Below, piece after piece: positions 13,922 to 50,729 of a DNA stretch of 61,787 bases. The stretch comes from Haloarcula mannanilytica (GTDB taxonomy: Archaea; Halobacteriota; Halobacteria; Halobacteriales; Haloarculaceae): NCBI RefSeq assembly GCF_005406125.1, contig NZ_BIXZ01000013.1, positions 1-61,787 on the forward strand. Reading direction: 5' to 3'. The position numbers and the translations under genes are program-made. Under the pieces are notes generated by a model, which did not search any database, was not told where the DNA came from, and worked only from the letters and a program-made list of their open reading frames with translations. Position 1 is the stretch's first letter. Every line of letters begins with the position of its first letter.

Positions 13922-13922
13922 A

Positions 13923-14837: not shown

Positions 14838-14983
14838 ATGTTGTACACGGTTTTCAAGCCCGATATACGTACCGGTCACCTCCGTAGCGAGGACGGTGTA
14901 CCGATAGTAGCCACTGGCCCTGCGGGAACGGTCGGGTATCGAGGGAAGAATACCTTGATATGTGTAGAATCGAACTAGCTGGT

Positions 14984-15349: not shown

Positions 15350-15385
15350 TCGCTTTCCTGACATTTCGAGAGTGCCAATACACTT

Positions 15386-15871: not shown

Positions 15872-15883
15872 ACCGAACCGCGG

Positions 15884-26050: not shown

Positions 26051-26276
26051 AGTTAATTCAAGGGCGCGATGCTGTTGCGCCCGCACCCCTCTGGGGCTTG
26101 ATAAACCCGATCGGGTCGCGCATTCCTTCCCGCGGTTTCCCGGATAAATGTTGGATCGGTGCGTGAGGTCGTGGCTGCGCGCGCAGCGACGGTAGGAGCG
26201 AGCACGGAGCGGAGGGTGGGGAGGTGGGGCCTGGGCCGGTCCGGCACACAGCAAAAAAGGAGGCTGCTCCGACTGG

Positions 26277-27176
26277 CTATGCTTCCCACCAGCGGCCGCG
26301 CTCCGGGAAGTGGATGGTGCTCCACCCTGTCACGGCCAGTGAGACGCGTCCTTCGTACCAATTTTTCGCCGCTCCGTGGATACGCACCTGTTCGCCTTCT
26401 TCGATCCAGGGGGCATTCGATTTCTCCCAGATCGTCACCTTGGTTTGCCCGCTCTCGTCCGCGATGAGGCCAACTTGAGCGATGGCTGGCGAGTTACTAT
26501 CCCAAAGCACCTCGATTTGACCTTCAACACTCACATCTTTGCGATCGACGTCCTCGAGGGCGTCGATGGGTACGGTGCCCCCCGGAGCTGTCTGCAACTC
26601 CTCGAACACCCGCACGACCGCACTCGTCATATCCGTGCCCTCGACGACCGCTTCGGCCAGCCGTCGACTGATCGCCGCACGCGACCAACCATCCAACCGC
26701 GTCGTGAGTCGGTCTGCCTCCGTGTTTACCGTCGCCAGTTCATTCTGGGAGAGCTCCGCTCGGGGATCATCCCGTTCGGGGTCAGCCATCGGATCCACGC
26801 TCGCGGCACGTTTCTGGAACTTCTGCCGGCGCTTCGTGCTCCTTTGCGCGGCGACCTCTCGAGTGCGCTGCTCCCGACCGTCCTGCGTTCCCAGCTCGGC
26901 CTGGGCACTGATGCGCTCCAGTTCGGCTTCCCGCGCCCGAATGCGCTCTTCCTGTTCGAGGGTGACACCGTGAATCCGGTCCTCGCTCGTGTCCGCGATC
27001 CCGTCCGGGTGGTTCGCATCCATCTTCGCCTGCGTCTCCTGCTTGACCGTCGCCTCGAACTCCGGCGTCTCGTCGACGACCGGGAAGCCGTCTTCATCGA
27101 CCGCCTGACCGCCCGCGTTCTCGAATGCCTGTTCATCCACTGTAACGACCTTTCCGCTTGCGTTGTTACTAGACAT
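26277..27176 (-). CDS. RPA-like single-stranded DNA-binding protein
   Basis: The 299-residue protein has a disordered acidic N-terminus, a coiled Glu/Arg-rich stretch (about 70-125), a conserved helical block around DDPRAELSQNELATVNTEADRLTTR and a C-terminal OB fold of the replication protein A kind (VSVEGQIEVLWDSNSPAIAQVGLIADESGQTKVTIW, with EEGEQVRIHGA, described in parts). Such proteins bind ssDNA during replication, repair or transfer. The same helical block recurs in the protein at 49596-50729. The gene is 5' to the conjugation operon but on the opposite strand. A hairpin at 27216-27239 lies in its upstream region. Confidence 0.78.
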   Translation of the reverse strand: MSSNNASGKVVTVDEQAFENAGGQAVDEDGFPVVDETPEFEATVKQETQAKMDANHPDGIADTSEDRIHGVTLEQEERIRAREAELERISAQAELGTQDGREQRTREVAAQRSTKRRQKFQKRAASVDPMADPERDDPRAELSQNELATVNTEADRLTTRLDGWSRAAISRRLAEAVVEGTDMTSAVVRVFEELQTAPGGTVPIDALEDVDRKDVSVEGQIEVLWDSNSPAIAQVGLIADESGQTKVTIWEKSNAPWIEEGEQVRIHGAAKNWYEGRVSLAVTGWSTIHFPERGRWWEA

Positions 27177-29854: not shown

Positions 29855-30310
29855 ATGAGCAACATAACACACGGACAGAACGCATCGAATTCACGAACGA
29901 CGCTACGTACTCACGCAAAACGGCGACTTGCCAAGGTATGGTGTACTCCCGCTGTAAGACGGAGTGCCCAACTGTTGCTTGTCGTAGTGGTGTTCTCTGG
30001 CACTGCAATGGGCCAGACTGACGTGGGGGACATCTACTGTGACACTGCTGTCGAAGACGGCGTTGATGTCGTCTTTGGGGCACTGGCCGGTCTCGGACTC
30101 CCGGCGACAATGGTGTTCGTCGGCCGTAGCGGTCTGTCGTACATGCGTGCGTCGGGGAACCCGAATCAGCAAAACGAGGCCCGGCGGGACCTCATCCTCT
30201 CGCTCGTTGGCCTCGGCGTCGTTGTGCTGGCAATCGTGGCTCCAGAACTCATCACGAAGTTCGGGGACAACGTTGGCTTTGGCTTCTCGGACTGCGTGAC
30301 GCCATTCTAA
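29855..30310 (+). CDS. Pilin-like small membrane protein (VirB2/TrbC-like)
   Basis: The 151-residue protein has a basic N-terminus, a hydrophobic signal-like segment (LLLVVVVFSGTAMGQ, about 42-56) and two further membrane helices (about 72-92 and 112-131) separated by a short basic loop (GRSGLSYMRASGNPNQQNEARR). This layout matches VirB2/TrbC-type pilin precursors of type IV secretion systems and their archaeal analogues. Sequence identity to a family is not evident, so the call rests on topology and on being first in an operon with VirB4- and VirD4-like ATPases. Confidence 0.55.
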   Translation: MSNITHGQNASNSRTTLRTHAKRRLAKVWCTPAVRRSAQLLLVVVVFSGTAMGQTDVGDIYCDTAVEDGVDVVFGALAGLGLPATMVFVGRSGLSYMRASGNPNQQNEARRDLILSLVGLGVVVLAIVAPELITKFGDNVGFGFSDCVTPF

Positions 30311-30317
30311 GCACACG

Positions 30318-32384
30318 ATGCCAACCCTCCGCTCACTGCTGCTGGTCGCAGCCCTCTGCTCGCTGTTCTCGACAGCCGCAGCTGCGGGGCCTACGTCTGC
30401 CACTCTCAGTGGTCCGGCCCAGATTGAGCGGGGGACGGCACATTCTCTCACCCACGGGAGTCACGGTGGTGTGGGGGTATTCCAACAAAACGCCACTGCA
30501 CGGAATAGCTCCAGCGGGGAGAGACCACAAGCGAACGACATTGACAACAACGAGTCCAGTGTCCAAGATCCACCAGATAACGGGACGGAAGCCAACGAAA
30601 CCAGCGATAAAGAGTCCGTTGACCCGGAGTCAGCGACGAACCAGACAGAATTGAACAGATCCGTCGACGTAGGGTCGAGACGACAGAATCTCAGCGCAAA
30701 AGTCTCGTGCTACGAGAACGCCTCGAATCCACCAGCGAACGCGTCTGTCGGGGACAACGCAACGGCAGGGGTCGTGCCACCGAACAGGTCGTACAACCAC
30801 AATCACACCTACTTCCGTGCGCTGTGGTCTGGCGACCAGGACCACCCAGACCAGACACGGGCCGACCGATCAGATGCCGAGAACGGCACGCTAGCCGTCC
30901 TGCCCTCATGCACGGGAGACATGCCTTCTCGTGCGCCCTCGAATCTGACGCTGTGGAACCGGCCTGAACACGATTCGTTCCGGACTGGGATCGAGAATTC
31001 CTCGCGACCAGTCAACGTTACCAACACTCGCTCTGGACTCTGGATTCGTGACGCCTACGTCGCGTTTTTCAGCATCGAACCGTCGACGGTTGTCCATCGA
31101 CCATCAGGAACAAAGCGGCTCGTCCGTCCGAACGGGACCGTCCGTGCAATCCATGACTACCGGTTAGTCCTCTCGGAGGTCTTCGAGGACGACTTCCGGG
31201 TCCTGAACACGTCGACAAAAACGACGCTGTACGCCAACGGAACCGAAATGGACAACAGCACCGCTGCTCAGCCCACGCTGGACTACACGAACATCACCGG
31301 GACCACTGAGCTCCGACTGGTCACGACAATCTCAACGAATCTCACGGAGATCGACGATGACGACATCGACGAGTACGGGCTCACAGTCACGGACTCACGC
31401 ACGGTCCACGTCGAAAACCTGTCCGAACGGGAGGTGGTCGTCGAACCTGGCGTCGTCCCGAATGGCAGAGGGACCAAGACCGACGACTATCGGATTGGGA
31501 CCGAAATTCCTGGCAGTTGGCAGCGCGTACGCTTTGATGCCGGATACGAGGTTCAGAGTCAGTGGCGGTTCTACACTCGCTCACCGCCCGGCTGGGAAAA
31601 CTGGTCAGAGAACACGGCGACGCCAGTGCGACCGCTGGAGACCCACGCTGTCCGGGTTACGGAAGGGCCAGAAGTCACGGTCAACCGCGTGCAAAACGAG
31701 AGTTCGGACGGTTGGCAGTTCGTGCCGTCGCTCGAAGCAACGTATCCGATGAACGCGACGGGGAACACGACCGCCAACGGGACCAACAGGGCTACGCTCC
31801 CACCAGAGATTCGGATTAATCGCTCGGAGTCGTTCACGAGAGCGGATCGGTTCACGATTCGGAGCGCGGAACCGCTCCGAACGGAGACCTTCATGATTCA
31901 CGGACTGGTCCGTGGGAACAGCATCGAGCAGCCAACGGACTCGACGAACCCGACGCCAATTCGGGAGGTCAACATCACCTCCGAGGTCGTCAACTCGACC
32001 GACAACTCGACGGACCTGCTGGTTCGGGTCAAACCAAAATCTGGGTTCCCGATTGCAGCGGGGAACGTCACGGTTGCGACCGGACAGGATAGGGTCGAAC
32101 GATCGTTCTCTGGTACGGACGAGATTGCAGTGACCGTTGACCAGGGCGAGGTTTCCTCAGCGATAGTCACGTACAGCCCGAATCAGATCTGGTGGGAGCA
32201 AGGGCGTGCTGTCCCAGTCCGGGACACCCAACAGCGGGTCGCATATGAACTCAATCTCCCAGACCTTGCAGAGTTCATCGACCTTGCTGTGGTGACGCTC
32301 CTGACACTGTTGCCGGCTGTGCTGGCGCTGTATGGCTACGACGTGTGGACGAGAGGCAAATTCATCGGTTGGTATAATCCATGA
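30318..32384 (+). CDS. Large surface protein with C-terminal membrane anchor
   Basis: The 688-residue protein has an N-terminal signal peptide (LRSLLLVAALCSLFSTAAAAG), a long Thr/Asn/Ser/Glu-rich outer region with many N-glycosylation sequons, and one C-terminal membrane helix (LAVVTLLTLLPAVLALYGYDVW) followed by a short basic tail. It is probably exposed on the cell surface, perhaps as the contact or channel component of the transfer apparatus. No known domain is recognised. It overlaps the next gene by 4 nt. Confidence 0.65.
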   Translation: MPTLRSLLLVAALCSLFSTAAAAGPTSATLSGPAQIERGTAHSLTHGSHGGVGVFQQNATARNSSSGERPQANDIDNNESSVQDPPDNGTEANETSDKESVDPESATNQTELNRSVDVGSRRQNLSAKVSCYENASNPPANASVGDNATAGVVPPNRSYNHNHTYFRALWSGDQDHPDQTRADRSDAENGTLAVLPSCTGDMPSRAPSNLTLWNRPEHDSFRTGIENSSRPVNVTNTRSGLWIRDAYVAFFSIEPSTVVHRPSGTKRLVRPNGTVRAIHDYRLVLSEVFEDDFRVLNTSTKTTLYANGTEMDNSTAAQPTLDYTNITGTTELRLVTTISTNLTEIDDDDIDEYGLTVTDSRTVHVENLSEREVVVEPGVVPNGRGTKTDDYRIGTEIPGSWQRVRFDAGYEVQSQWRFYTRSPPGWENWSENTATPVRPLETHAVRVTEGPEVTVNRVQNESSDGWQFVPSLEATYPMNATGNTTANGTNRATLPPEIRINRSESFTRADRFTIRSAEPLRTETFMIHGLVRGNSIEQPTDSTNPTPIREVNITSEVVNSTDNSTDLLVRVKPKSGFPIAAGNVTVATGQDRVERSFSGTDEIAVTVDQGEVSSAIVTYSPNQIWWEQGRAVPVRDTQQRVAYELNLPDLAEFIDLAVVTLLTLLPAVLALYGYDVWTRGKFIGWYNP

Positions 32385-33214
32385 CACACAAGACTATACC
32401 ACGAAATAGCAGTATCGACCGTAGAACAGTGCTTGGACTCTTGAGCGGGAGTCTTGCTGCCCTTGCAGGATGCAGTGGGCTGGCTGCTGACAGCGGTGAA
32501 GGCGGCGGGAACGCCGGCCCGCCCGAAGAGCAGTCCGAATACATCGAAGAGACATCGATTGGGGTTGTGGAGAACGGCCGCCAATTGGCTCTGGAGGTAG
32601 CTGTGACTGATGAGATCAACCCTTCATCGGTCAGTATCATCACAGAGTCCGGTCGGGAGTTCTCCAGTGACTATTTCAGTCCTGGCGAGACCAGGACACG
32701 CCTCTCGCTAACAGAGGGAGAAGACTCACATGAGCCATTGCCACGGGGACAGCACAAGCTCTATCTCCGTGGGGATGATGTCGAAACTGAACTCCCACTC
32801 GAACTGGGCACTTCGTTCAAACTTGACGAAGTCGTCCCTGGGACCGAGCATGAAGAGATTCGTGACGATAGTTTAGGAGTGATTGTTCGGAATGTGGGAC
32901 AACGAACTGGCGCAGCAGTTCGGACGATTGTCAATGGAGAAAACAAAGACAGTGATCCGTTTGCTCCGGTAAAGCCCGGCGAAACCGGTGTTGTCGAATT
33001 CACATTCCTACTTAATGATCGAGTGGCTAATTGCGTAACAGTTGAAGAAACAACCGAGAGAGCTGAGGAATTAAGAGTTGAATTCCTTTGGAGTGACCCG
33101 GTTATACTCACCCAAACGATCAGCTACGATAACTCAAAGGGGTGTAAAAAATCTCTAGTTGGCGAGCCAGAAGAAATCACTGCAACCTCAGCAGAAACGG
33201 AGATGGAGACGTAG
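32381..33214 (+). CDS. Tat-exported lipoprotein of the conjugation operon
   Basis: The 277-residue protein has a Tat signal with Arg14-Arg15 (DRRTVLGLLSG) and lipobox LAGC (Cys31), then an acidic Gly linker and a beta-rich outer domain. It is anchored outside the membrane. No family is recognised. Its position between the surface protein and the VirB6-like gene suggests a structural part of the envelope-spanning complex, perhaps analogous to the VirB7-type lipoproteins of bacteria; that analogy is inference. Confidence 0.65.
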   Translation: MTHKTIPRNSSIDRRTVLGLLSGSLAALAGCSGLAADSGEGGGNAGPPEEQSEYIEETSIGVVENGRQLALEVAVTDEINPSSVSIITESGREFSSDYFSPGETRTRLSLTEGEDSHEPLPRGQHKLYLRGDDVETELPLELGTSFKLDEVVPGTEHEEIRDDSLGVIVRNVGQRTGAAVRTIVNGENKDSDPFAPVKPGETGVVEFTFLLNDRVANCVTVEETTERAEELRVEFLWSDPVILTQTISYDNSKGCKKSLVGEPEEITATSAETEMET

Positions 33215-33216
33215 TA

Positions 33217-34890
33217 ATGCAAGCGGGAATTGGTGAACAAGTCGTTCAGGAACTTGTCGAGAGGGTGATTGAGGAACTCTCGTCGGCAATCTCGTCCGGT
33301 ATCAGTAGCTTCCTTAATGAACTCAGATCGGACATAACTGAGTATTTGGAGGGGTTTTTCGAGTGGCTTATTGATCCGATGGTAGGAACACCCTCTCCTG
33401 AAGGGCCCAGCTCGTCAGCCCCTGTGGACATCGCGTTTGAATCTGCAACTAACGCCCCGTGGGACTCGCTGATCTCGAATATATACTTCGACTCAATCGT
33501 TGGGTTAGCGATCGGTATTCAGTTTTCTGTCTTGGCAATGATTGGACTTAGATATGGGTCGATGAATCCAGTTGTCCGGAAGAAACTCCTACGTCGGCTT
33601 GGGGTTGCATTTCTTTCGCTGTTCTTCTGGCTTCCAGTAGCTTCACTGGGGACCCAGTTTTTCGATGCTATTGGTCGTCAGATCTATGCTTCGGGACACA
33701 CCGAGGCAGAGGCTGCTGCCCTGATTAGCTCAGTTGAGGAGATCGCTTCGCTCAGTCTGGGGATATTCGCTGTCCTCATCGTGGTAGGGCTGTACGTCTA
33801 CCTCAAGGCGGCGTTCATCTTCATCGCCCGGTGGATTTTGGTCTTCCTGCTCACGCTGTCGATGCCGCTAGTCGCGACGTTCTGGGCAGTGGAAGTCTGG
33901 CCACTCAATCGCTTTTCGGGACTGGCGAAACAGGTCGCCGGTGCGTATCCCGGCGTCCTTGCTGCGGGCATCCCGCCTGCGATCTTGATCCGCATGAGCT
34001 TCGAAGCGACAAACTGGGGACTGGCTTCTGACCTGTCGCTGTTCATCAGCCTCGTCACGCTGTACCTGGCGGCAAAGTCCCAGAAAGTCCTCATCCAGCG
34101 GAGTAGCCGCGTTGCAATTCAGGTGAGCGAGCAGGTCCTTGCCGGCGGCAAAAAGCCGGTAAAGATCGGAGCGGCGGCTACTGGTGCAGCGGCCACAGCC
34201 GGCGCTGGAGTGGTCGGTGGCCCCGGCGCAGCAATGGCGACGGGTGGCACGATTCGAGCTGCCTCAAGCGCCGCGAAAGGACGGATTGGTGGCGCTGCCA
34301 CGGGTGCCCAGATGGTCCATCGCCAGATGGCAGCCAACCCCGCTGGCATGAAACACAGTTCCAGTAACAGTGGCACCATCGGATCCGGTCCCGGTAGCGG
34401 TGGGAACAGTACCAACGGCTCTGGTGGCGGCTCAGGCGGTTCAGGCGGGTCCGCTTCGCCTCCTACCGGCGGCAGTGGGTCCGGCGGCTCCGGCGGGTCT
34501 GGTGGCTCTGGCAGCTCCTCGTCACCCTCCAACAGTAGTGGCGGTGGGTCCAGCGGAGCTCCTGCTGGAAGTGCGCTTAACAGCAAGTTCACAAATTCCA
34601 GCAACGGAAGTTCGCCTTCTAGCACCTCCAGTGGGGCCGACAACGAGTCGATGAGTGAGCGCCAAACCAAGCGCAACACTGGCGATACCAGAGTGTATGA
34701 CTCCGATGTCGATCCGCCGTTCTCCGACGAAGACTTCTCAGAAAACGGGAGTTTGGAGGCCGAAACAGAGGACTCTGAGACGTTTGACTCGCTTGCAGAC
34801 GTGTTTGCGAGTGACGCTGACAAACTCGGACCGGACGTGTATCGAGATGGAATGCCGGGAACAGACACAGACGACGCGGAGGACGACTAA
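33217..34890 (+). CDS. VirB6/TrbL-like polytopic membrane protein
   Basis: The 557-residue protein has an amphipathic N-terminus, then about six membrane helices between residues 90 and 290 (for example VGLAIGIQFSVLAMIGL, LGVAFLSLFFWLPVASLG, IFAVLIVVGLYVYLKAAFIFIARWILVFLL in pieces). A long low-complexity tail follows, rich in Gly, Ser, Ala and Asn (about 310-460), and an acidic end. Polytopic channel components of type IV secretion (VirB6, TrbL, TraG-N) have this plan. It starts 2 nt after the lipoprotein gene and its stop overlaps the VirB4 start. Confidence 0.65.
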   Translation: MQAGIGEQVVQELVERVIEELSSAISSGISSFLNELRSDITEYLEGFFEWLIDPMVGTPSPEGPSSSAPVDIAFESATNAPWDSLISNIYFDSIVGLAIGIQFSVLAMIGLRYGSMNPVVRKKLLRRLGVAFLSLFFWLPVASLGTQFFDAIGRQIYASGHTEAEAAALISSVEEIASLSLGIFAVLIVVGLYVYLKAAFIFIARWILVFLLTLSMPLVATFWAVEVWPLNRFSGLAKQVAGAYPGVLAAGIPPAILIRMSFEATNWGLASDLSLFISLVTLYLAAKSQKVLIQRSSRVAIQVSEQVLAGGKKPVKIGAAATGAAATAGAGVVGGPGAAMATGGTIRAASSAAKGRIGGAATGAQMVHRQMAANPAGMKHSSSNSGTIGSGPGSGGNSTNGSGGGSGGSGGSASPPTGGSGSGGSGGSGGSGSSSSPSNSSGGGSSGAPAGSALNSKFTNSSNGSSPSSTSSGADNESMSERQTKRNTGDTRVYDSDVDPPFSDEDFSENGSLEAETEDSETFDSLADVFASDADKLGPDVYRDGMPGTDTDDAEDD

Positions 34891-37800
34891 TGGCTGACAA
34901 TCAAGACGACTACAACACGAACATCATTCACGAATCTCTCGGAGATACGACCAACTTCTGGGGGGACTACACGCTTGGGGAACTCATCTTGTTCCTCATT
35001 CCGCCGTTTGGCTTCCTCATCGCCATGGGGATGCCGTTCGTTCCAGCGGCGCTGTTCTTCCCAACGCTGGCTCTGACGGCGCTCGCTGAAGTGATCCTCT
35101 ACATTCTCCACAAAGTCCGACCGGACCATTATCGGCTCACGGAGTGGCTACGAGTCAAGCTATTCTGGCTCGTGAAAAAGCGGCGCTACACCCACGGTGC
35201 GGGCAATCAGGATGCTCGGCAGGTCACGCGACTTGAGCGGATCATGCCCCACGGCATCGAGCGCGTTGACGGGGCGTACGTTGGGGCAGTCGAAGTCGAA
35301 CCTGCCAATATGGCGTTGCAAGACGACGAGAAGTGGCGCAAGGCGGTCAAGTCGCTCACGCGGCTGTCGGAGTCGCTGACTGGACGCGCGAAGCTCCACG
35401 TCACGACGGCCGAAGTCGATAATGAGTCCCACATCCAGTCCCACATTGACCGCCTCGAAGATCCCGACGCGAAGAGTCACCCAATCTTCCGTGGAGTCCT
35501 GTTGGAGTGGGTCAACCGCTACACTGACGATGAGGACGACATTGACGCGGAAACCGAACTCCAGCGCAAGTACTACATCGTCGTCTGGGTGACCGACGAC
35601 GACATCCACGACCTCCAGATGACCGATGACTCCATCGCGGACTATCTGGCTGGGATACCCGCTCTTGGACGGTTGTTTGGTCGGTTCGATAGCGATACGC
35701 TGACTGACGCCGAGCGAGAGGAGTTCAAGGCCAAGAAACTCCACGACCGGCTTGGGACCGTCGACAGGGCAGTCAGCAATATGTACCGGTGTCGCAGCCG
35801 GTCGGTCAGCCCACACGAAGTGGCAAACCTGACTGAAGACTACTGGGCCTGTGAAACGCGGTCGGAACGCGACTATGCGGAAGCAGCGTCGCTCTCACCA
35901 GTGACGTACTCCGCCCGAGAACTCATCAAGCACGGCAAAGGGGCTGCCTCCCACGACGCTGCAGAGGGCATAGAGACTGACGACGTTGGAGGATCTGATT
36001 ATGAGGCCGATGAGACCGATTTCGTCTCCCAGTTGCACAGGCCGGGCGAGAACCATCGATCGCTGGTCGCGCCGACAGATATCGATTGGGAAGCCGACCA
36101 CGCGCTCATTGATCAGGAGACGTTCACGCGGTGCTTTTGGATCGAGACGTATCCAGAGCATCCGACCAGCGGGATGCTAGAACAACTGCTGCTGGATACG
36201 GACCTTGCCGTTGATGTCTCAATATACATTGACCCCTACGACCCTGACGCAGCCGTGTCAGTGATGAAAGAGTGGATCTCGTCGCTGAAGATGCTGCAGT
36301 CGGACATGGGAGAGCTTGAAGCGGAGGACATCGAACAGGAGGTCAACCAAGCGAAGTATATCCGGCAGATGGTCCGCCGGAACCACACGTCGTTGTTCCG
36401 CGTTGGCGTGTTCATCCGCCTGACCGCAGAGACCGAAGAAGACCTCCGGAAACAGACCAACCGGCTCGAAACGTTGTTGCGGGACTCGCCGTCGAACTGC
36501 GGCGTCAAGCGAACGACCCGCCGGCAGGAAGCCGGACTGGTGACTGTCTCGCCGATCGGGGCCAACGAACTCGGCCAGAACCGACTGTCCTCGATGACCG
36601 GGGAGGCGCTGGGCTCGCTGTTCCCGTTCTCGTCGAACTACCTCCGGATGGACCATGGCATCGAATACGGGCTGCACGGGCACAACGAATCTTCGCTGTT
36701 GATTGACCCATGGGCACTCGAAACCGGCCACTCAGAGCTGGTGACCGGGATGCCCGGCGGCGGAAAGACACACGGAACACAGGCTCGGGCGATGCGGATG
36801 CTGAAAAAGCGGTCGGACGTCAAGCAGATCTACATCGACCCGGTCGGGGACATGCACGGCAGCGCGCAGATGCTGGATGCAAAGACGATCACAATCAGCG
36901 GTGAGACGCCCCTGAATCCGTGTGAGATGCACCCGACGCCGGAGCATGTACTTGAACAGTCCCCGGATATGCAACCAGTCTCAGCGAAGAAAGACGAAGT
37001 GTACGGCGTCATCGAAAACTTCCTCCAATCGCGGGATGTTGATCTGGAGATGCACAGCGGGCTCATTACGTTCCTCATCGACACGATATTTGCTGAGTCC
37101 GATATCGACCCAGCCGACCCGTCAACGCATACGCCGGCGAACTCGCCCGACCTGAGTGACTTCCTCGAAGTGGTCGACCGCCTCCAGGAAGATCCGGGAA
37201 TGTTCCCCGGTGCGACGACGGAGTCCTCCCAAGAGAAAATCCAGCAGTACGCGAACGAACTCTCGATTGCGTTGCATCCGTTCCGACCGGGGAGTACGTT
37301 CGGCAATCTCTCAAAAGAGTCGGACCTGCGGCTGATCGACGACAGCAGCAAAGCCGTCTATCTGGACCTCCAGCAGGTCGAAGGCTCGGGTAGTGGCCTC
37401 GGCAAGCAGTCGTTCATCATGCAGTTGCTGCTGTCGACGCTGTACCAGCAGGCGAAAAATATGGAGCAGAAGGTCGAAATCATCATCGACGAAGCCCACT
37501 ACCTGTTCAACGACGACGCGAACTTGGAGTCGCTGAATCAGATCGCCCGCCACCAGCGCCACGCCGGACTACGTCTGGTTATGCTGTCCCAGACGCTGTC
37601 GGAGTTCGAGGACAAGGGTGCAGCCGAAGAAATCGCGGGGATGTGTCCGATCAAGGTCCATCACCGTGAGCCAGAAATGGGCGATGAGACTGCGAAAAGT
37701 GCTGGACTGACCAGCGAACAACAGTCCTACATCCAGCACGCCGAAGCCGGGAAGGAGTCACTGGGCGACGGACAGGGCTACTCGCAAGCGCTGGTCCGCG

Positions 37801-38147
37801 TCGACGAGCATGGCGACTACCCGCTGACGATCAAAACCTCCTGGGAGGAAAAACAGATCATTGACCTCGACGCCGACGCAGAGGACGCGTTTGACGATGT
37901 TGTCGCTGAGGGTGACCCGACTGTTACTGAATTCGAAGAGTTTGTCCACTCGAGAGCAGTCCAACAGGAGCTCACCAATCACGGACTGTCGCCTGAGAAG
38001 GCTGAACGCGTGCTGGACGGACTGAGCGAAGACGAGTTGGTGGACGCTGTGTCTGTGGCACTTGAGCAGGCACAGCCGGAGGCAGCCGCTGTTAACGGTA
38101 GTGCTGAGGAACAGACCAATCCAACACCAGTTGACTACATGGACTGA
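34890..38147 (+). CDS. VirB4/TraC-like conjugation ATPase
   Basis: The 1085-residue protein starts with a short soluble segment and two membrane helices (ELILFLIPPFGFLIAMGMPFV, AALFFPTLALTALAEVILYIL, about 28-72), reminiscent of a VirB3/PrgI-type domain fused to VirB4. A VirB4 N-domain follows, then the RecA-like motor with Walker A GMPGGGKT (about 622) and Walker B VEIIIDEAH (about 861-869). Conserved QTLSEFED lies after it. VirB4 ATPases power substrate transfer and pilus assembly in every known type IV secretion system. The protein is full length and intact, and is the strongest marker for the system. Confidence 0.88.
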   Translation: MADNQDDYNTNIIHESLGDTTNFWGDYTLGELILFLIPPFGFLIAMGMPFVPAALFFPTLALTALAEVILYILHKVRPDHYRLTEWLRVKLFWLVKKRRYTHGAGNQDARQVTRLERIMPHGIERVDGAYVGAVEVEPANMALQDDEKWRKAVKSLTRLSESLTGRAKLHVTTAEVDNESHIQSHIDRLEDPDAKSHPIFRGVLLEWVNRYTDDEDDIDAETELQRKYYIVVWVTDDDIHDLQMTDDSIADYLAGIPALGRLFGRFDSDTLTDAEREEFKAKKLHDRLGTVDRAVSNMYRCRSRSVSPHEVANLTEDYWACETRSERDYAEAASLSPVTYSARELIKHGKGAASHDAAEGIETDDVGGSDYEADETDFVSQLHRPGENHRSLVAPTDIDWEADHALIDQETFTRCFWIETYPEHPTSGMLEQLLLDTDLAVDVSIYIDPYDPDAAVSVMKEWISSLKMLQSDMGELEAEDIEQEVNQAKYIRQMVRRNHTSLFRVGVFIRLTAETEEDLRKQTNRLETLLRDSPSNCGVKRTTRRQEAGLVTVSPIGANELGQNRLSSMTGEALGSLFPFSSNYLRMDHGIEYGLHGHNESSLLIDPWALETGHSELVTGMPGGGKTHGTQARAMRMLKKRSDVKQIYIDPVGDMHGSAQMLDAKTITISGETPLNPCEMHPTPEHVLEQSPDMQPVSAKKDEVYGVIENFLQSRDVDLEMHSGLITFLIDTIFAESDIDPADPSTHTPANSPDLSDFLEVVDRLQEDPGMFPGATTESSQEKIQQYANELSIALHPFRPGSTFGNLSKESDLRLIDDSSKAVYLDLQQVEGSGSGLGKQSFIMQLLLSTLYQQAKNMEQKVEIIIDEAHYLFNDDANLESLNQIARHQRHAGLRLVMLSQTLSEFEDKGAAEEIAGMCPIKVHHREPEMGDETAKSAGLTSEQQSYIQHAEAGKESLGDGQGYSQALVRVDEHGDYPLTIKTSWEEKQIIDLDADAEDAFDDVVAEGDPTVTEFEEFVHSRAVQQELTNHGLSPEKAERVLDGLSEDELVDAVSVALEQAQPEAAAVNGSAEEQTNPTPVDYMD

Positions 38148-38152
38148 TTCAC

Positions 38153-38527
38153 ATGAGCGAAAGTATCACGCTGTCGATGAGTGCAGAGAAAAAGAAACAG
38201 ATCGTAACGCAGGCTGAGAAGAATGACGAAACGATCACCCAGTTCTTGCTCAAGGCAGCAGAGCAGCGTATTTCGCGTGAATTGCAGGAACAACGTGCTA
38301 CCGAACTGGGGATTGAACAAGAACTGCAAGACCTTGCCGATAGTGTCACAGACGAAGTGAGCGCTGCAACGGATGTCGATACGGATCAAGAACTGTGCCA
38401 TATCGTCGCATTGTGGGAGTTGATTTCGAGTGAATATGATCCCGAGAAGCGTGCTGCTGCAATGGAGGAAGCCCCAGAGAAACTGCAAGAGCAAGTAGCA
38501 AAGATCGGTGGAGGTGACAGCAAATGA
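38153..38527 (+). CDS. Small acidic helical accessory protein
   Basis: The 124-residue protein begins SESITLSMSAEKKKQIVTQAEKNDETITQFLLKAAEQRI, a beta-strand followed by two helices that looks like a ribbon-helix-helix DNA-binding domain. The rest is helical and acidic. It overlaps the next accessory gene by 4 nt. Its place just before the relaxase-like gene fits a MobC-type protein that binds the transfer origin. Confidence 0.55.
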   Translation: MSESITLSMSAEKKKQIVTQAEKNDETITQFLLKAAEQRISRELQEQRATELGIEQELQDLADSVTDEVSAATDVDTDQELCHIVALWELISSEYDPEKRAAAMEEAPEKLQEQVAKIGGGDSK

Positions 38528-39003
38528 CGGATAGAGACGCTGTCATTCAGATATACACGACTAGCGAAAACAAGGAATGGATCAAAGAGCGGGCTGAGAT
38601 AGAGGGTAAGACAGTCTCAGATATCGGCCACGATCTTGTTGAAGAGTATATTGACAGCGAAACTGGTGAAGCCCAGTTTGAACGGTACAGGACCGACACT
38701 CAACTTGAACTCCTCCTGGAGAATGTCCGAAGCGATATTATGGAAAATCTGGACGAGTTCAAATCCGAGTCGCTAGAGGAAATAAAAACTATCCAGAAAG
38801 TCCGGACAGCATACACCATCGCAATCTGGAAACTGCTACATGAGGACCACGATGACGCACATCTCAGATTAGCGATGAAATTTGCGACTGAGCGCATTGG
38901 ACAAGAGCCAGCTACAGAGACACAAAACGAGAGTGAAACAGACTCAGGAGCACAGGGGCGTGAGTCTTCCGAGACCACCAATCCGGGAGGTGACAGTGCA
39001 TGA
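38524..39003 (+). CDS. Second helical accessory protein, RHH-like
   Basis: The 159-residue protein starts DRDAVIQIYTTSENKEWIKERAEIEGKTVSDIGHDLVEEYI, again a strand plus two helices of the ribbon-helix-helix kind, followed by a helical middle and an acidic Ser/Glu-rich tail. It shares the same overall plan as its neighbour and may form a paired DNA-binding complex with it. It overlaps the relaxase-like gene by 4 nt (ATGA). Confidence 0.55.
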   Translation: MTDRDAVIQIYTTSENKEWIKERAEIEGKTVSDIGHDLVEEYIDSETGEAQFERYRTDTQLELLLENVRSDIMENLDEFKSESLEEIKTIQKVRTAYTIAIWKLLHEDHDDAHLRLAMKFATERIGQEPATETQNESETDSGAQGRESSETTNPGGDSA

Positions 39004-39755
39004 TACTCCAAACGGATTATCAGTGGAATGGAGCAGGAAACCTCGTTGACTACATGCGACGCGACCGAGCACAGGACGCTGGGGCGACAGTTGACCTACG
39101 GAACCCAGCCGGACGAGACCTATCTGATTCGGAAGTGGATCGGTTTGTCAACAAAAGCCAAGAGTTCGGATTCCAGCGGCACATGATCGTGTCTCCAGAT
39201 CCCACTGGACACTATTCACCAGAAGAGGTGGATACTAACACTCGGGAAATTATGAACCGCGAGTTCGCCCGGCAGCCGACAACGGACTACGTGTACACTG
39301 TCCACCAGAATACGGAGTTTCCTCACGCGCATATTGCTGCCACTGCGGAGCCTGCAGAGTTAGAACTCAACCGGGATGAGATTCAACAACTACGTGAGCG
39401 GGCGGCGACGACGTTTGAAGAGCCTGCTCGGACAAAAGATCCGACAGCAACTGCTCACGACGCTCCGGAGAATCCCGGGCGGATAGTGGATCGAGAAGCG
39501 AGGGAACAATACCATGAGGCAGAACTGTCGCTGAAGCCTGATGCTGAAAAAGCGCTCAAGCGGGCCACTGAGAAGAATGAACAGAAGGAAGTCGGACAGT
39601 CCGTGGCTGACAAAGAGCGCGACGAGACCCGAACAGAGTCACTCTCAGAGCGCCGTGAGGAAACGCACGAAGGAGAGGCAGAAGCTGAACGTCAACAGGG
39701 ACAAGAACGAGAGCGAGACGAACGCAGAATGATGGGTGGAGACGGTGAGTTCTAG
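39000..39755 (+). CDS. Relaxase-like protein (MobA/VirD2 style HUH motif)
   Basis: The 251-residue protein has the elements of a conjugative relaxase. Tyr residues lie near the N-terminus (Tyr7, Tyr18). A segment RHMIVSPDPTGHYSPEEV (about 60-77) resembles the HxVxSP-type strand of VirD2/MobA relaxases. YTVHQNTEFPHAHIAATAE carries three His (102, 109, 111) in the HUH-type metal-site spacing. The C-terminal half is a charged Glu/Arg-rich helix. Relaxases nick the transfer origin and stay bound to the 5' end. It lies between two DNA-binding accessory genes and the coupling ATPase, as in bacterial mob operons. It is short for a relaxase. Confidence 0.65.
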   Translation: MILQTDYQWNGAGNLVDYMRRDRAQDAGATVDLRNPAGRDLSDSEVDRFVNKSQEFGFQRHMIVSPDPTGHYSPEEVDTNTREIMNREFARQPTTDYVYTVHQNTEFPHAHIAATAEPAELELNRDEIQQLRERAATTFEEPARTKDPTATAHDAPENPGRIVDREAREQYHEAELSLKPDAEKALKRATEKNEQKEVGQSVADKERDETRTESLSERREETHEGEAEAERQQGQERERDERRMMGGDGEF

Positions 39756-41949
39756 CTCCTCTGCGCCACCAGGACAGCAGTCCGGGGAGGTCCCGAACAG
39801 TCTGAAGTACGACAATGTTGTTGGGTTCTTCTGGGCCGGATTCCTGCTGTTGTTCCCGCCGATGATTGTTGACGGTGATAAAGTGCTGCCAAAGCGGTTC
39901 TGGGCGTGGCGCTACATCTACCTTGGATTCGGACTCGTCAGTGCAGTCTTCTTCCATGAGGCGCTTGCTGGGACGCCGAGTGTCGCACTGCTGTTCCCGT
40001 TTGCTCACGTACTGGCTGCGATCTCTGTCGGGTCGCTGTTCGTCGATTTCACCGTTCCCGGTTTGTCGCTACCGATGGTCTCGTATTCGATTGCAGCTAT
40101 CCTGTACGCGATCTCAATCGGCATTGTATTCTCTGGGGAATTGCTGCGGCGGACCTCTCCGGAAATGCTCGCGATGAATCAATGGGAGCACGATGAAGGG
40201 GAGTCCGTCGTCCCACTGGAAGACATCGCTCACGAACATGAAGAGGCCGAGATGCCGTTCACACTCGATCAAGATGTCTCAACGGCTGTTGTGGGTGAGA
40301 CTGGAAGCGGGAAGACGTCGATGATGAAGCTACTAGCCTACCAGTTCCCCTACTACAGCGACACAGCTGTCATCGCCCACGATACCGGTGAGGACTTCAA
40401 AGAGTTCTACGAGGATCTTGGATTCGACGTTCAGTGTATCCGCCACGATGACAGTGACGTGGTCTGGAATCTGTTCAAGGATGCTGACTCAGAATCAGAC
40501 TTCCGTGAGGTTGCCGGCGCGATCTTCGGGGAAGCCGATGGCCATGACCCGTTCCATCGACCGGCGAAGCAAACCTTCGCAGAGATGCTGCTGTACCTCC
40601 ATCTCAGCGCAAAAAAGAACAACCGTCGTCATGCTCTCTGTCATGCTGATATTGTCTCGCTGCTCAACGGCGGTCACATTGCCCTCAAGAAGGCACTTGA
40701 TGAGTTCGACCGGTTAGAATCGGGCCACATTGACCCTGACAAGGGCAAAGGCGCACAAAACGTCTACCAAACGATCAAGGAGAACGTCGACCCGGTCTTC
40801 ACTGGCGACTTCGGGGAGTACGGGGAGTTCTCATTGCAAGAGTATATTGAGAATCCGGACGGCCGGGTCCTCATCATTGATTCGAACCCAACGGAACTGG
40901 AAACGCTCGGACCGATGTATCAACTGCTGGCAGACTGGTCAATCCGGTACGCGATGAACGCTTCTAATCCAACGGTCCACATCCTTGACGAGATTGACGC
41001 GCTGCCAGCACTCAGTCAGGTGACGAATCTCACAGCCCGAGGGCGGAAGCATACAGCTCGCGCACTGGTTGGCGTGCAAACAATCGGCCAGCTCAAGGAC
41101 ACGTACAGTACAATCTCTGGGATTGTGGGCAACTGCCCGCAAGGAGTTTACTTCGGTCCCGGTGACAGTGAGTCGACGGACTTCATCCTCGACGAACTCG
41201 GCGAGAGTCGCCAGTATGATCGCTCCGAGATGGTCTCGATGAGTCACCAGGGACGCGGCGAGAATCCACGGACGCAGGCTCGGGACACCTACCGTCAAAA
41301 AGACAAAACACCAATCACCTCTGGTCTGCTCCGAGACTTTCAGCCCGGTGAGTGCGTTGCCGTCTCTCGAACGACGTGGGTCCACGGGCAGTCCTACGAA
41401 CTAGAGGACGTTCGTGATAGCCTCCCGGCACAAGGAGCGGAGTCGCCCGAGAGTTCGGAACCAGAGCCCACGAAGGACGACACCGACATAGAGAATGACA
41501 GCTGGTTCTCGTTTACTCGGGCACGACTTGATGAGGCACTCCGTGGGTCAGGTGGTGAGACCAAAGCCGATGAGTCCAAAAATAATCGTCCGGATCGTGG
41601 CCCCGAAGTGGAGCCGATTGTCGACGCTGCAGATGGGTTGGACGACGACGATTCGAGTGACCCACTCGACCAGGCAACAGCAAACACTGCTGTCACGTCT
41701 CCGGACACAGACTTCCCAGACCTGTCAGAGTTTGCAACTGAATCCAGTGGTCAGGATCAGGACCAGCAGTTGCCCGATGACGACGGGGACCACTCTCCTG
41801 ATCTGGGTTCAGATCCCGGCAGTGAGGAGACAGAATCTGCTGAGACGGAAGAGAGTGGATCGGCTTCTGAATTGGATACTGACAAGAGTGAAGAGCAAGA
41901 CGAAACGGAGTCAGAAGAGAAGGGGTACGATCCGGGCCAGTTCATGTGA
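39736..41949 (+). CDS. VirD4/TraD-like coupling ATPase
   Basis: The 737-residue protein has four membrane helices in its first 140 residues, then a RecA-like motor with Walker A GETGSGKTSMMK (about 186) and Walker B TVHILDEIDALP (about 413), followed by TARGRKHTARALVGVQTIGQL, typical of the TraD/VirD4 family. The acidic tail of about 170 residues is a haloarchaeal trait. Coupling proteins link the relaxase-DNA complex to the secretion channel. The start is GTG at 39736, overlapping the relaxase-like gene by 20 nt; a second GTG at 39745 is an alternative. Confidence 0.85.
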   Translation: METVSSSSSAPPGQQSGEVPNSLKYDNVVGFFWAGFLLLFPPMIVDGDKVLPKRFWAWRYIYLGFGLVSAVFFHEALAGTPSVALLFPFAHVLAAISVGSLFVDFTVPGLSLPMVSYSIAAILYAISIGIVFSGELLRRTSPEMLAMNQWEHDEGESVVPLEDIAHEHEEAEMPFTLDQDVSTAVVGETGSGKTSMMKLLAYQFPYYSDTAVIAHDTGEDFKEFYEDLGFDVQCIRHDDSDVVWNLFKDADSESDFREVAGAIFGEADGHDPFHRPAKQTFAEMLLYLHLSAKKNNRRHALCHADIVSLLNGGHIALKKALDEFDRLESGHIDPDKGKGAQNVYQTIKENVDPVFTGDFGEYGEFSLQEYIENPDGRVLIIDSNPTELETLGPMYQLLADWSIRYAMNASNPTVHILDEIDALPALSQVTNLTARGRKHTARALVGVQTIGQLKDTYSTISGIVGNCPQGVYFGPGDSESTDFILDELGESRQYDRSEMVSMSHQGRGENPRTQARDTYRQKDKTPITSGLLRDFQPGECVAVSRTTWVHGQSYELEDVRDSLPAQGAESPESSEPEPTKDDTDIENDSWFSFTRARLDEALRGSGGETKADESKNNRPDRGPEVEPIVDAADGLDDDDSSDPLDQATANTAVTSPDTDFPDLSEFATESSGQDQDQQLPDDDGDHSPDLGSDPGSEETESAETEESGSASELDTDKSEEQDETESEEKGYDPGQFM

Positions 41950-42729
41950 CTCATCTTCACTAGGGGCCACGACAAAGTATAGGCGTTAGAATAGTTCTGC
42001 AATTTCTCTTTTTGCTATCCCTTCACTGCTTCTCAGTAAAACAACTCTCATCACACAGAACCAGGGTTCTAATATAGGATTCTGGTAAAGTAACTCAAGC
42101 TAACTGATTCTAGCGAAAACCGCATGAGGGCGTCGGCTCTCTGGCTATCTGAATCTACCAGTCTAATAACTAATTCACAGACAACCGCAACACGTAACGG
42201 GTCTGATTCACAAAATAATCGGTTCTTTATCTTGCCATGCTTTGCAGGGCGGTCTGAGAGCGATTGTTGCGAGATATGTATAAGCAGTCTAACACTGGAG
42301 GTACGGCGACTAGTCTGCCACCAAACGGTAGTGACGACTGGCAGACAAACCCCATGAGAGAACCTGTTGGGACACAGACAGAAGTAACTTCCAATGCGGG
42401 ATCCACATCGTGACGTGAACACAGTCGGGCAGCCCCACGAGAGGTCGTCTGATTTCATTGAGCCACGTAAGTGACCGGCGCGTCGACGCCGGGGCCACAC
42501 CGATCATGGGTTCATCCAAACTCAGCCAGAGCTGGCAGACCCACGCTTGGGACAGACCCATGTCGACGCCGTACCGAACTCGACTCGTCGATCTACAACT
42601 GCGGGACACACCACTATGTCCGGAGCTTTGTATCCGAATTCCAACAGGTGAGGCAGACGTTCCTTTCGTGCTTCAACGCTTTCGCAATTTAGAGTCCGTG
42701 GCCGGCCGAGAACCGTCCGATTCTCGGTG
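41950..42729. other. Gap after the conjugation operon
   Basis: AT-rich at first (41980-42300), then GC-rich. One short frame ending at 42692 (YNCGTHHYVRSFVSEF) faintly resembles the small haloarchaeal zinc-finger family with a CGxHV start, but it lacks the later Cys pair. No gene is supported. A transfer origin could lie here or before the relaxase-like gene. Confidence 0.35.
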
Positions 42730-42804
42730 GGGATCGCGCCCGCTACCGCAGACACGATGGACCGAAGTGAGGCGCGCGTCCGCGCCGAGCGCAGCGTCCC
42801 GTCG
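42730..42804 (+). repeat. 75-nt hairpin element, copy A
   Basis: This copy matches 49248-49322 in the same orientation at 69 of 75 positions. It contains the stem GGCGCG-CGTC-CGCGCC, flanked by GGACCGAAG before and GCAGCGTCC after, which can pair GGAC with GTCC. Three of the six differences fall in and next to the loop while the stem is kept. No protein frame explains the conservation. Confidence 0.7.
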
Positions 42805-42985
42805 TCCGAGTGAGCACTACGAACGAGGGTTCAACAGATGACCAGCGGGAGCCTGTTCGTTCGTGTGTCCGAGCCACGGTAACCAGATGCTCGCTCTCGC
42901 ACTTCTCTCTTGACGTTGTCGCACTCGCTCCGCTTGACCGGATCTCAGTCGACCATGTGCTCCGAACCATGTGGTACGGGCAAAA

Positions 42986-43864: not shown

Positions 43865-44644
43865 CTAGTCACTGCCTGTCAAATACTGCAAATCAACGAG
43901 GGACAGGTTGTGGATGCCAGTTAGTGTCCGGATTTCAGGAATTCGTTGAGAGAGTTCTGAGGGAGTATGACTGTCCGAGCCCAGTACAAATTGAATGCCG
44001 TACTCAGTGAACAGTTCGAACATTCCTGGATCGGGATGTACGCGGCCGAGGGAACGATGGACGCGGCCAGCGTTCACCTCCGGGACTGTCCGAGATTCGG
44101 CGAGCGCTTGTGCAACACGCTCGTAATCTGCCCGTATTGTGTGTCGCCGGAGAGCCGGAATTCGTTCTGGAAGATCGAGATGCCCAACCACCTCGAAGAG
44201 CTCGGATTCGATAAGGGCGACAAGGGCGTCATAGTAGCGTTCGACAGCGGTACGGCACTGTGACGCGTCCGCGTCTTTAAATTGTTTCCCACTGGTGTAG
44301 TTGTACTGACCAGCGAAGTGCACACTCCCGATTGTGTACGCGAACCTCGCCGCATCGAGGAACGCTGCTATCTCTGACTCATCTTCCTCAACGTAGCTCA
44401 TCTCTGCCGCGTCGTAGAGCCTGAGTTCGGTGGATTCCCTTTCGGTGTCGATGTCTTCGCGACGTTGCTGGTACGTCTCGACGAGGTCGTACGTTGCTCG
44501 ACGACCGAATTCGTCATCGGTCACGATACAGTGGTCGGTCACCCCCAGTGCGGACAATCCTGCATTCTCGGCCGCTGCAATCATCGCATTGAGGTCTGAT
44601 CCATCTGAGTACGTCGTATGCGTGTGGATATCTATCTCCATCAC
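43865..44644 (-). CDS. PHP-domain phosphoesterase
   Basis: The 259-residue protein has the PHP metal motifs: IDIHTHTTYSDGSD at the N-terminus, GVTDHC, the Glu in DAAEMSYVEEDE, the His in IGSVHFAG, GHLDLPER and the C-terminal GSDSHTPSEL. PHP enzymes hydrolyse phosphoesters such as histidinol phosphate or nucleotides. It overlaps the ComB-like gene by 4 nt and is the last gene of the ECF transporter cluster. The substrate is not known and is likely tied to the imported compound. Confidence 0.82.
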   Translation of the reverse strand: MMEIDIHTHTTYSDGSDLNAMIAAAENAGLSALGVTDHCIVTDDEFGRRATYDLVETYQQRREDIDTERESTELRLYDAAEMSYVEEDESEIAAFLDAARFAYTIGSVHFAGQYNYTSGKQFKDADASQCRTAVERYYDALVALIESELFEVVGHLDLPERIPALRRHTIRADYERVAQALAESRTVPEVNAGRVHRSLGRVHPDPGMFELFTEYGIQFVLGSDSHTPSELSQRIPEIRTLTGIHNLSLVDLQYLTGSD

Positions 44645-45387: not shown

Positions 45388-45495
45388 ATTTTAGGCTCAA
45401 ACTGTCGTCCCAAAAAGACCACTAAGAGGGCTATACCCGGGACATGTGTGCTATATACCGTTCAATAGATGAGGCGAGTCGTACTCGCTGAGTGA

Positions 45496-48920: not shown

Positions 48921-49247
48921 TGAACTATTATAATAGGGGAACTAACGGATATTGCCCACAAACCACCGACTGTATTGCTATATATCGATATACCAATAGC
49001 CCTAATCAGGGGGAACCCATTGTTCGTATGAGTAGAGCTTCTGAGATTGCTAGTCGAGTGGTCCTGACCGACTCGCGTCCTACATCTTACACACAAGTGT
49101 TGATAAGATTCGGATAGATCGGATATGAGAACTGTTCTATGAGACACTCTTCTTGATTCTATTTGATGCACCTAAATTCCAGTTGGGGCCACACGGTGGC
49201 GGCGGACCGGCGAAAGAGAGGCTCGTTTCCACTGCCTGGTGGCAGTC

Positions 49248-49322
49248 CGGGATCGCGCCCGCTACTGCAGGCACGATGGACCGAAGCGAGGCGCGCGAGT
49301 GCGCCGAGCGCAGCGTCCCGTC
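49248..49322 (+). repeat. 75-nt hairpin element, copy B
   Basis: Direct copy of 42730-42804. The central stem is GGCGC-GCGAGT-GCGCC, preserving pairing despite changed bases compared with copy A. The rest of 49323-49595 is GC-rich and shows no gene. Confidence 0.7.
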
Positions 49323-49595
49323 GGCGTCGCGCGCTGTCGTGACACACCATCCGTACGCCTGTTCCGCCCCGGCCAGCTGGCCCACGCCGACGCACACACC
49401 AGTACACAAGTGTTCTCATAGCCCCACCATGACTGACCCACAGTGTTGGCTGTCAGCGTGCCAGTCCGTGCGCGTGGTCGCTCGGCGGCGGCCCGGCTTG
49501 CCGGTGGCCGCCGGCGAGCCGCGTGCGCGAGCACCGTCGTCGCGTCGACCGAGCGATAGGCCCCGCCCGGTGGGGGACGCCCTCGCAGTCGGGCG

Positions 49596-50729
49596 TTAGT
49601 TCGCCTCGGCGTGGGCTATACCGCGATGGGTTGCAACCCCATGCTCGGACTTGAACAGGTCTGAACACTCGGGACAGCGGGCCTTCCCGAGCGTCACGGC
49701 GACCGCTTGGTCACTGTCTCGGTTGTTGGCCCACTGGTGAGCATCAGACTCCGCGTCCCACGGGGCGACCGTCGGGCTCTCGCCTGACGAGCCAAACGCA
49801 CAGCCGGCGTGTCCAGTGGGTGCGGGACCGTCGCCGCGTTCGATGATGCACATCAGCGTGTCGCTCGTGACGGCCACGGTCTTGAGACCGTTATACTCGT
49901 CTGGCTTACCCCCGGAGATTCGCACCCGGTCGCCTTCGTGGAGCGTGCGGACCATCTCGCCGCCGTGCATCGACTTGCCCCAAACCGTGACCTTCGCGCT
50001 CGTCCCCTTGTCATCCTCGATGTAGAGGACTTGGTACTGATTGCGGGCGTCTGGCTCGTCGATGATGTGCGTGACTTCGCCTTCAACGGTACACTCGTAG
50101 CCGTAGGGCGAGACATCCGCGATAGGCGTGGGTGCGTCCATTGCAGCCCGGGCATCTAGCTGAGTGGAAAACGCGGCGCTACACAGGTTGTTACCGTCGT
50201 CAAGATACTCTGCGAGGAGACGACTGGCGGCGGCGCGGGTCATGATCGTCTGCTCGCTGATGGTGTCGGCCTGCTGGTTGACTTTCGCTAGCGTCTCCGC
50301 GTCCATCTCGGCCCGTGGGTCGTCGTGGTCGAAGATCTCCGGGCGCTGGCTCATCGCGTCCGCAAGCTGGCGGTTGCCCGCTTCGCGGTCCACACCGTTG
50401 GCATGGTGGCGGGCTAGTTCGGCGTGTCGGGCTTGCTCGGCTTCGCGTGCGTGGCGTTCCTCTTGCTGTTGAAGGGTTTCGCCAAAGCGTCGGTTGGGGC
50501 CGACCTCGGTTGAGCGGGTCCAGTCGTAGCTGTGATAATCCTCTTGGTGGGCGTAGTAGTTGCCGCGGCTGTCGCTGCCCTTGTTCAGCCGGTAATCGAG
50601 TTCATCGCCGTTTTCGGTCTCTGCGACAGCCTCTAGAAGTTGCTCAGGGCCACCCTCGACGTGGGCTGAAAGCGACACTGTCTGGTTGCTTGCCGATGCA
50701 TTCTTACCGCTGGAATTGGTAGCGTACAT
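49596..50729 (-). CDS. RPA-like ssDNA-binding protein with zinc finger
   Basis: The 377-residue protein has a disordered N-terminus, a charged coiled region (about 90-125), the helical block DDPRAEMDAETLAKVNQQAD shared with the protein at 26277-27176, then an OB fold (YGYECTVEGEVTHIIDEP, DKGTSAKVTVWGKS, EGDRVRISGGK). At the C-terminus a C2H2-type finger reads CPECSDLFKSEHGVATHRG. It probably binds single-stranded DNA for replication or transfer of the mobile element. The two relatives flank the conjugation and cargo segments. Confidence 0.78.
   Translation of the reverse strand: MYATNSSGKNASASNQTVSLSAHVEGGPEQLLEAVAETENGDELDYRLNKGSDSRGNYYAHQEDYHSYDWTRSTEVGPNRRFGETLQQQEERHAREAEQARHAELARHHANGVDREAGNRQLADAMSQRPEIFDHDDPRAEMDAETLAKVNQQADTISEQTIMTRAAASRLLAEYLDDGNNLCSAAFSTQLDARAAMDAPTPIADVSPYGYECTVEGEVTHIIDEPDARNQYQVLYIEDDKGTSAKVTVWGKSMHGGEMVRTLHEGDRVRISGGKPDEYNGLKTVAVTSDTLMCIIERGDGPAPTGHAGCAFGSSGESPTVAPWDAESDAHQWANNRDSDQAVAVTLGKARCPECSDLFKSEHGVATHRGIAHAEAN

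Follow-up and report, generated by a model that had tools for sequence, protein, structure and literature searches.

Introduction

Several papers published between 2019 and 2025 base their models of archaeal DNA transfer on the absence of relaxases (PMC6563490, PMC9905601, PMC11389934, PMC12857230). Archaeal genomes are described as lacking apparent relaxase homologues (PMC9905601), relaxases in archaea as unknown (PMC11389934), and archaeal conjugative plasmids as being without any relaxase found (PMC12857230). An earlier survey by Guglielmini et al. in 2011 had nevertheless listed pNG500 of Haloarcula marismortui as the one archaeal conjugative plasmid with a relaxase and a type IV secretion system (T4SS), although pNG500 is only named there and its operon is not dissected (PMC3158045), and a 2019 paper on tRNA noted a related relaxase and TraD in Haloarcula californiae (PMC6333295). 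Here we describe a nine-gene operon on contig C13 (61,787 b, “the window”) of a 33-contig, 4.2-Mb Haloarcula genome. With pT33-3, the pNOB8-type archaeal plasmids and the thaumarchaeal integrative and conjugative elements it has a VirB4/VirD4 pair in common; unlike these, for which no relaxase is reported (PMC12857230, PMC6563490), it encodes a relaxase. We consider it probable (roughly 0.83), judging from sequence and predicted structure, that the operon enables a Haloarcula plasmid to transfer itself through a relaxase-dependent T4SS.

Results

pNG500 carries all nine genes in an identical order. VirB4 of pNG500, of pNYT1 and of the 125.8-kb plasmid of H. hispanica N601 is about 90% identical to that of the window, and the relaxases of pNG500 and its kin are 74-79% identical to the window's over the first 205 residues. 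Compared with pNG500, the window plasmid carries a cargo of sugar/peptide-uptake and ECF-transporter genes.

The first-pass annotation of this DNA had described nine co-oriented, closely packed genes, and all nine were recovered as intact open reading frames (ORFs) on one strand (29855-41949, Table 1). The arrangement is nearly gapless, the intergenic distances being, in order, 7, -4, 2, -1, 5, -4, -4 and -20 nt (a range of -20 to +7). The final overlap is smaller if VirD4 starts at GTG 39745, the start used in pNG500 and probably the true one. The proposed identities (pilin, surface protein, lipoprotein exported by the twin-arginine translocation (Tat) pathway, VirB6, VirB4, a pair of ribbon-helix-helix (RHH) proteins, relaxase and VirD4) each survived testing.

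To map the operon across haloarchaea we used profiles made from its nine proteins, which were placed on about 75 loci. The nine-gene order was kept, as far as the DNA reaches, in 24 non-redundant Haloarcula loci, pNG500 among them; the order is therefore not a matter of chance. Departures were limited to an extra RHH gene in L052 and L053 and an IS1595 insertion in L045. A sister VirB4 clade comprises 22 loci (Natrinema and others) in which VirB4 is about 45-48% identical and genes one to five match those of the operon. Plasmid modules of this kind in Natrinema, Halorussus and Halorubrum share the pilin-glycoprotein-lipoprotein-VirB6-VirB4 block with the window but differ behind it, where RHH and relaxase genes are missing and VirB4 is followed by a protein of ~400 aa (N400) and a VirD4-like ATPase of ~1020 aa with a Pox_D5-like C-terminus (ND4). 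ND4 occurs in the 22 loci and N400 precedes it in 21 of them, while mapping with the operon profiles never placed a relaxase in any of the 22. Conversely, RHH-relaxase-VirD4 sets without a channel occur in Halalkalicoccus, Halomarina and others, and the linkage of these genes holds in nearly all relaxase loci, including those that lack mating-pair formation (MPF) genes. Comparison thus shows what appears to be an exchangeable RHH-relaxase-VirD4 cassette behind a haloarchaeal mating channel, with relatives that use a relaxase-less coupling ATPase in its place.

The genome that contains the window also has a channel-less RHH-relaxase-VirD4 cassette (L050, contig C15, 3588-6347) and a relaxase-less channel in which VirB4 is split (L140, contig C10). 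All three module states therefore coexist in one strain. VirB4 homologues were detected in 217 of the 391 genomes of the class and the relaxase in 32; the Pfam relaxase model itself matches 7 of 393 genomes of the phylum. As for N400, it was considered as a hidden relaxase and rejected, having no PDB or Pfam match and only a phrog of unknown function. It may be the split-off N-terminal half of a coupling ATPase, because two relatives have a coupling ATPase of ~1460 aa, close in length to N400 plus ND4. Searches of viral contigs with the relaxase, the relaxase alignment and N400 returned no relatives.

The first-pass annotation had named a relaxase candidate, and this proved well founded. The protein scored 5.3e-6 against PF03432, over the Pfam cut-off, and its motifs can be read directly: Tyr18 (motif I), RHMIVSP at 60-66, and H102, H109 and H111 (motif III, HUH). 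In an alignment of 14 diverse family members Tyr18, H102 and H109 are invariant and H111 nearly so, some members having HUQ instead of HUH. In a PDB profile search a “Relaxase” chain ranked first (E 0.27) with motifs I and III aligned. AlphaFold2 (AF2) modeled residues 1-136 as a b-a-a-b-a-b-b-a core, and Foldseek matched the model to MobA of R1162 (2ns6) with a probability of 0.99, the other matches listed reaching at most 0.33. The order of the motifs is MOBP-like, the precise MOB class being unsettled (NF041450 MobP1 scored a weak 0.0043). Like MOBP/MOBQ relaxases with NikA/MobC partners, the window relaxase has a Tyr-first HUH core, a PF03432 match and an RHH-type protein upstream; the haloarchaeal proteins differ in being very short (170-260 aa) and without a helicase or primase domain.

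The two small proteins upstream retrieve each other in profile searches. RHH1 matched NF041264 (MobA-accessory) weakly at 0.0014 and RHH2 matched PF21983 (NikA-like) at 0.014, while the RHH2 orthologue of L058 reached 4.7e-5 against the same family and that of L067 scored 0.007 against RHH_1. Downstream, VirD4 matched PF10412 (4.3e-32), TraD_Ftype (1.3e-17) and TrwB in the PDB (1.4e-6). In L066 a single 690-aa ORF (13850-15919) joins relaxase and VirD4, with both Pfam domains and HUQ replacing HUH.

The first-pass annotation had based VirB4 and VirD4 on Walker motifs, and these are present: GMPGGGKT at 620 and IIIDE at 864 in VirB4, and GETGSGKT at 187 in VirD4. It had also stated that its reading would be refuted if the two ATPases fell among HerA-type clades and the gene order were not conserved. 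In a tree that took in VirB4, VirD4-type, HerA-type and bacterial sequences together they grouped with conjugation ATPases, and the order recurs in the 24 loci, so this refutation failed. Archaeal VirB4s formed one clade (100/98) beside bacterial CD1110 VirB4. VirD4-type proteins divided into ND4 on one side and bacterial plus relaxase-cassette VirD4 on the other (98/92), with the cassette VirD4 clustering with bacterial TrwB/TraD (95/89). Topology constraints rejected a single archaeal VirD4 clade (p=0.012) and, in a post hoc test, a VirB4+HerA clade excluding bacterial VirB4 (p=0.031). A HerA origin of the two proteins was rejected on the tree and these tests. An earlier VirD4 tree without an outgroup could not recover the order of the three VirD4 groups. 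By database proximity, the nearest bacterial relatives of VirB4 are in Bacillota and those of VirD4 in Pseudomonadota; given these different affinities, the operon is best read as a mosaic, apparently the product of an exchange that put a relaxase cassette behind an archaeal mating channel.

The channel proteins resemble those of monoderm CD1110/Mbov-type T4SSs (MPF_FATA-like), with which the window shares an Mbov_0395/T4SS_pilin-type pilin, a CD1110-type VirB4 and VirB6. VirB4 has NF045971 (CD1110) as its best NCBIfam match (1.3e-39), also matches NF045975 (1.3e-26, residues 24-913) and scores 0.17 against the CedB profile. The VirB6 family profile of the window retrieves Natrinema VirB6 (9e-113), which is itself over the PF19590 TrbL_3 cut-off (6e-13), and a profile-profile comparison matched it to another VirB6 set from haloarchaea (99%, 4e-18). 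Homologues of VirB6 and VirB2 are thus present, the window pilin scoring below cut-off (PF18895, 4.5e-5; NF045849, 2.6e-6) and its Natrinema orthologue above (PF18895, 9e-10). The pilin has a signal site after ...AMGQ and a mature form of ~98 aa with two transmembrane (TM) helices. Cys62 and Cys147, one near each mature end, are invariant in 36 distinct pilins. Since two-helix pilins have both termini outside, it is a fair guess that the ends are joined by a terminal disulphide.

In contrast to the monoderm systems, the nine proteins include no CHAP or peptidoglycan hydrolase, putatively VirB3-like helices are fused to VirB4, and a surface glycoprotein and a Tat lipoprotein are found instead. 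The surface protein has a signal sequence, a single C-terminal TM helix with a short cytoplasmic tail, and 34 N-glycosylation sequons; shuffling gives 9.0, and no more than 18 in any of 2000 shuffles. Its homologues occur in all haloarchaeal MPF loci examined where the DNA extends far enough. An AF2 model of it (mean pLDDT 39) was too poor for a fold search and was not used. The lipoprotein carries RRTVLGLLSGSLAALAGC, read directly as a Tat motif plus lipobox, and its homologues hold the same position in related loci. The two hydrophobic helices at the VirB4 N-terminus lie in the VirB3/PrgI position; homology to PrgI was unsupported (hhalign probability 0.1% against two PrgI proteins). No match to the VirB1, VirB7-B10 or VirB11 families was found among the nine proteins. 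The “full set” of the first-pass annotation is therefore a minimal, monoderm-like gene set, and it had a precedent in pNG500, listed as a conjugative plasmid in 2011.

About 780 bp 3' of VirD4 are conserved in blocks across 11 plasmids, with two AAATCGCAAGACGGC-like direct repeats and one GCCAGnGCTGGC inverted repeat. This stretch is a candidate cis-acting transfer region. Directly after it lies a structured element of ~150 bp with several hairpins. These show covariation, with double changes at 17 pairs and 55 doubly changed cells versus 18 in shuffles, and the pairing is 83% versus at most 41% when slid. A second copy in the window is 92% identical to the first over 75 bp. At 66 bits or more, the covariance model found the element in every one of the 17 Haloarcula genomes sampled that carry both this relaxase and the channel, the group from which its training members came, and in 1 of 374 others. 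In PLSDB it is present on 11 of 12 Haloarcula plasmids of the pNG500 type and on one Halorientalis plasmid. The structured element is a marker of this plasmid family. There are usually 2-3 copies, and the distal one adjoins the 3' end of a gene for an OB-fold (SOSS-B-like) protein. This is also the case on the Halorientalis plasmid, where no relaxase match was found, so the element could be part of a replication or leading-region module instead of the transfer origin proper. Counts of G-U against A-C pairs did not settle which strand folds; the element may be an RNA, folded single-stranded DNA (ssDNA) or a partition/transfer site. A second, shorter OB-fold (SOSS-B-like) homologue lies upstream of the operon (26277-27176, minus strand; profile 5e-68), and between the two element copies an insertion of cargo genes (43865-48889, minus strand) encodes PHP, ComB-like phosphatase and ECF-type transporter proteins.

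Table 1. Coordinates of the operon and of the features downstream of it in the window.
Feature	Coordinates	Strand	Basis
VirB2-like pilin, 151 aa	29855..30310	+	sub-cut-off PF18895/NF045849; orthologue over cut-off
Surface glycoprotein candidate, 688 aa	30318..32384	+	34 sequons, C-terminal TM helix, homologues
Tat-exported lipoprotein, 277 aa	32381..33214	+	RR motif and lipobox, positional homologues
VirB6/TrbL-type polytopic membrane protein, Ser/Gly-rich tail, 557 aa	33217..34890	+	family profile
VirB4 ATPase, 1085 aa	34890..38147	+	NF045971 CD1110, NF045975, tree
RHH1, relaxosome accessory candidate, 124 aa	38153..38527	+	weak NF041264; profile homology to RHH2
RHH2, relaxosome accessory candidate, 159 aa	38524..39003	+	PF21983 NikA-like 0.014; orthologues
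Relaxase, 251 aa	39000..39755	+	PF03432, motif alignment, AF2/Foldseek
VirD4 coupling protein, TrwB/TraD type, 737 aa	39736..41949	+	PF10412, TraD_Ftype, PDB TrwB, trees
Conserved non-coding stretch, two direct repeats and inverted repeat	41950..42724		alignment of 11 plasmids
Structured non-coding element, copy 1	42725..42873	+	covariation, model R1 108.8 bits
Structured non-coding element, copy 2, short form	49244..49341	+	97.8 bits
OB-fold (RPA/SOSS-B-like) protein gene	49596..50729	-	adjoins element copy 2; 73% identical to pNG500's

Discussion

Going by homology, RHH1 and RHH2 would sit on the origin of transfer and bring in the relaxase, which would nick a single strand through Tyr18 with the H102/H109/H111 metal site and stay linked to the 5' end. 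VirD4 would then take the relaxase-DNA complex to a VirB6/VirB4 channel. The two-helix pilin, probably stapled by its terminal disulphide, would be the conduit, and the surface glycoprotein and Tat lipoprotein may stand in for bacterial envelope parts, the channel crossing or anchoring in the S-layer. On the origin of this arrangement we would give about even odds to a scenario in which an RHH-relaxase-VirD4 cassette of bacterial type entered haloarchaea and took the place of the relaxase-less coupling ATPase behind an archaeal mating channel. The result would be ssDNA conjugation driven by a relaxase, and the structured element, next to the gene for an ssDNA-binding protein, would act in the leading or transferred region.

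Several observations weigh against relaxase-dependent self-transfer. The AF2 core of the relaxase has a pLDDT of about 78 over residues 1-136 and is poor beyond, with a Foldseek E of 8.7e-3. The RHH assignment of both window proteins rests on weak matches, orthologues scoring better. No nic site was identified in the window. The VirD4 tree has long branches, because of which its grouping counts as support and not as proof. We found no transfer experiment in the literature, and Haloferax mating as described to date proceeds by cell bridges (PMC7749143). Finally, the window is a fragment of a larger replicon.

It could be argued that the channel moves double-stranded DNA or runs without a relaxase, a view put forward for Sulfolobus elements and thaumarchaeal ones, and that the HUH protein is a passenger that initiates rolling-circle replication. 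Double-stranded transfer has been suggested before for relaxase-less elements (PMC6563490), and the excess of VirB4 (217 genomes) over relaxase (only 32) implies that the channel works without a relaxase elsewhere. For the window operon this is unlikely: the invariant tyrosine lies N-terminal of the HUH triad, which is the order that sets relaxases apart from Rep proteins, and the best fold is MobA, not Rep. The tight linkage to RHH and VirD4 genes, the relaxase-VirD4 fusion and a VirD4 of the type that partners bacterial relaxases also argue against an initiator.

Another possibility is a conjugation-derived machine for DNA import or protein secretion (Ced/Ted-like, or effector delivery) with no plasmid self-transfer. 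Ced and Ted are built on pilin, VirB6 and VirB4 homologues (PMC9905601), and the pilin and VirB6 layout here is similar; yet VirB4 resembles CD1110 (1e-39) far more than CedB (0.17), relaxase and VirD4 are in the same operon, and homologues reside on complete circular plasmids. This makes import or secretion very improbable, and we give slightly less credence still to the idea that the operon on this contig is a decayed remnant. Insertion sequences are present on the contig, and cargo has been inserted between its two structured elements, but all nine ORFs are full-length with catalytic motifs intact, and VirB4 is about 90% identical to that of plasmids from several other species.

With self-transfer through a relaxase and T4SS as the preferred reading, the combination in Haloarcula is not categorically new, having been glimpsed in 2011 and 2019. 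What is new is that the channel is widespread in haloarchaea and that a sister clade uses another VirD4-like ATPase and never a relaxase. We found no paper describing the operon, the cassette exchange, the channel distribution or the structured element, subscription journals and preprints being outside our search. MOB-suite typing in PLSDB lists pNG500 as MPF_T and non-mobilizable. It types 21 of the 22 plasmids with a window-type relaxase as non-mobilizable, so the mobility of archaeal plasmids is undercounted. Because a relaxase with complete catalytic residues lies in a conserved channel operon, and plasmids with this operon occur in several Haloarcula species, among them the genetically tractable H. 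hispanica, conjugation driven by a relaxase can be put to a direct test in archaea. Comparing channels with and without the relaxase cassette gives access to three questions: is ssDNA the form of DNA that archaeal conjugation moves, what is the role of the version lacking a relaxase, and can relaxases and coupling proteins be swapped across domains?

Other features of the contig

Positions 1-23000 hold a sugar/oligopeptide island with GFO/IDH dehydrogenases, a GH2 mannosidase-like protein, a dipeptide ABC transporter, a sugar isomerase, an epimerase and a CBM35 protein. A gene at 25151-26254 (minus strand) encodes a protein with three homing-endonuclease-associated HNH_repeat units, and a CRISPR array of 12 repeats (60903-61657, minus strand; Rfam CRISPR-DR24) lies at the right end of the contig.

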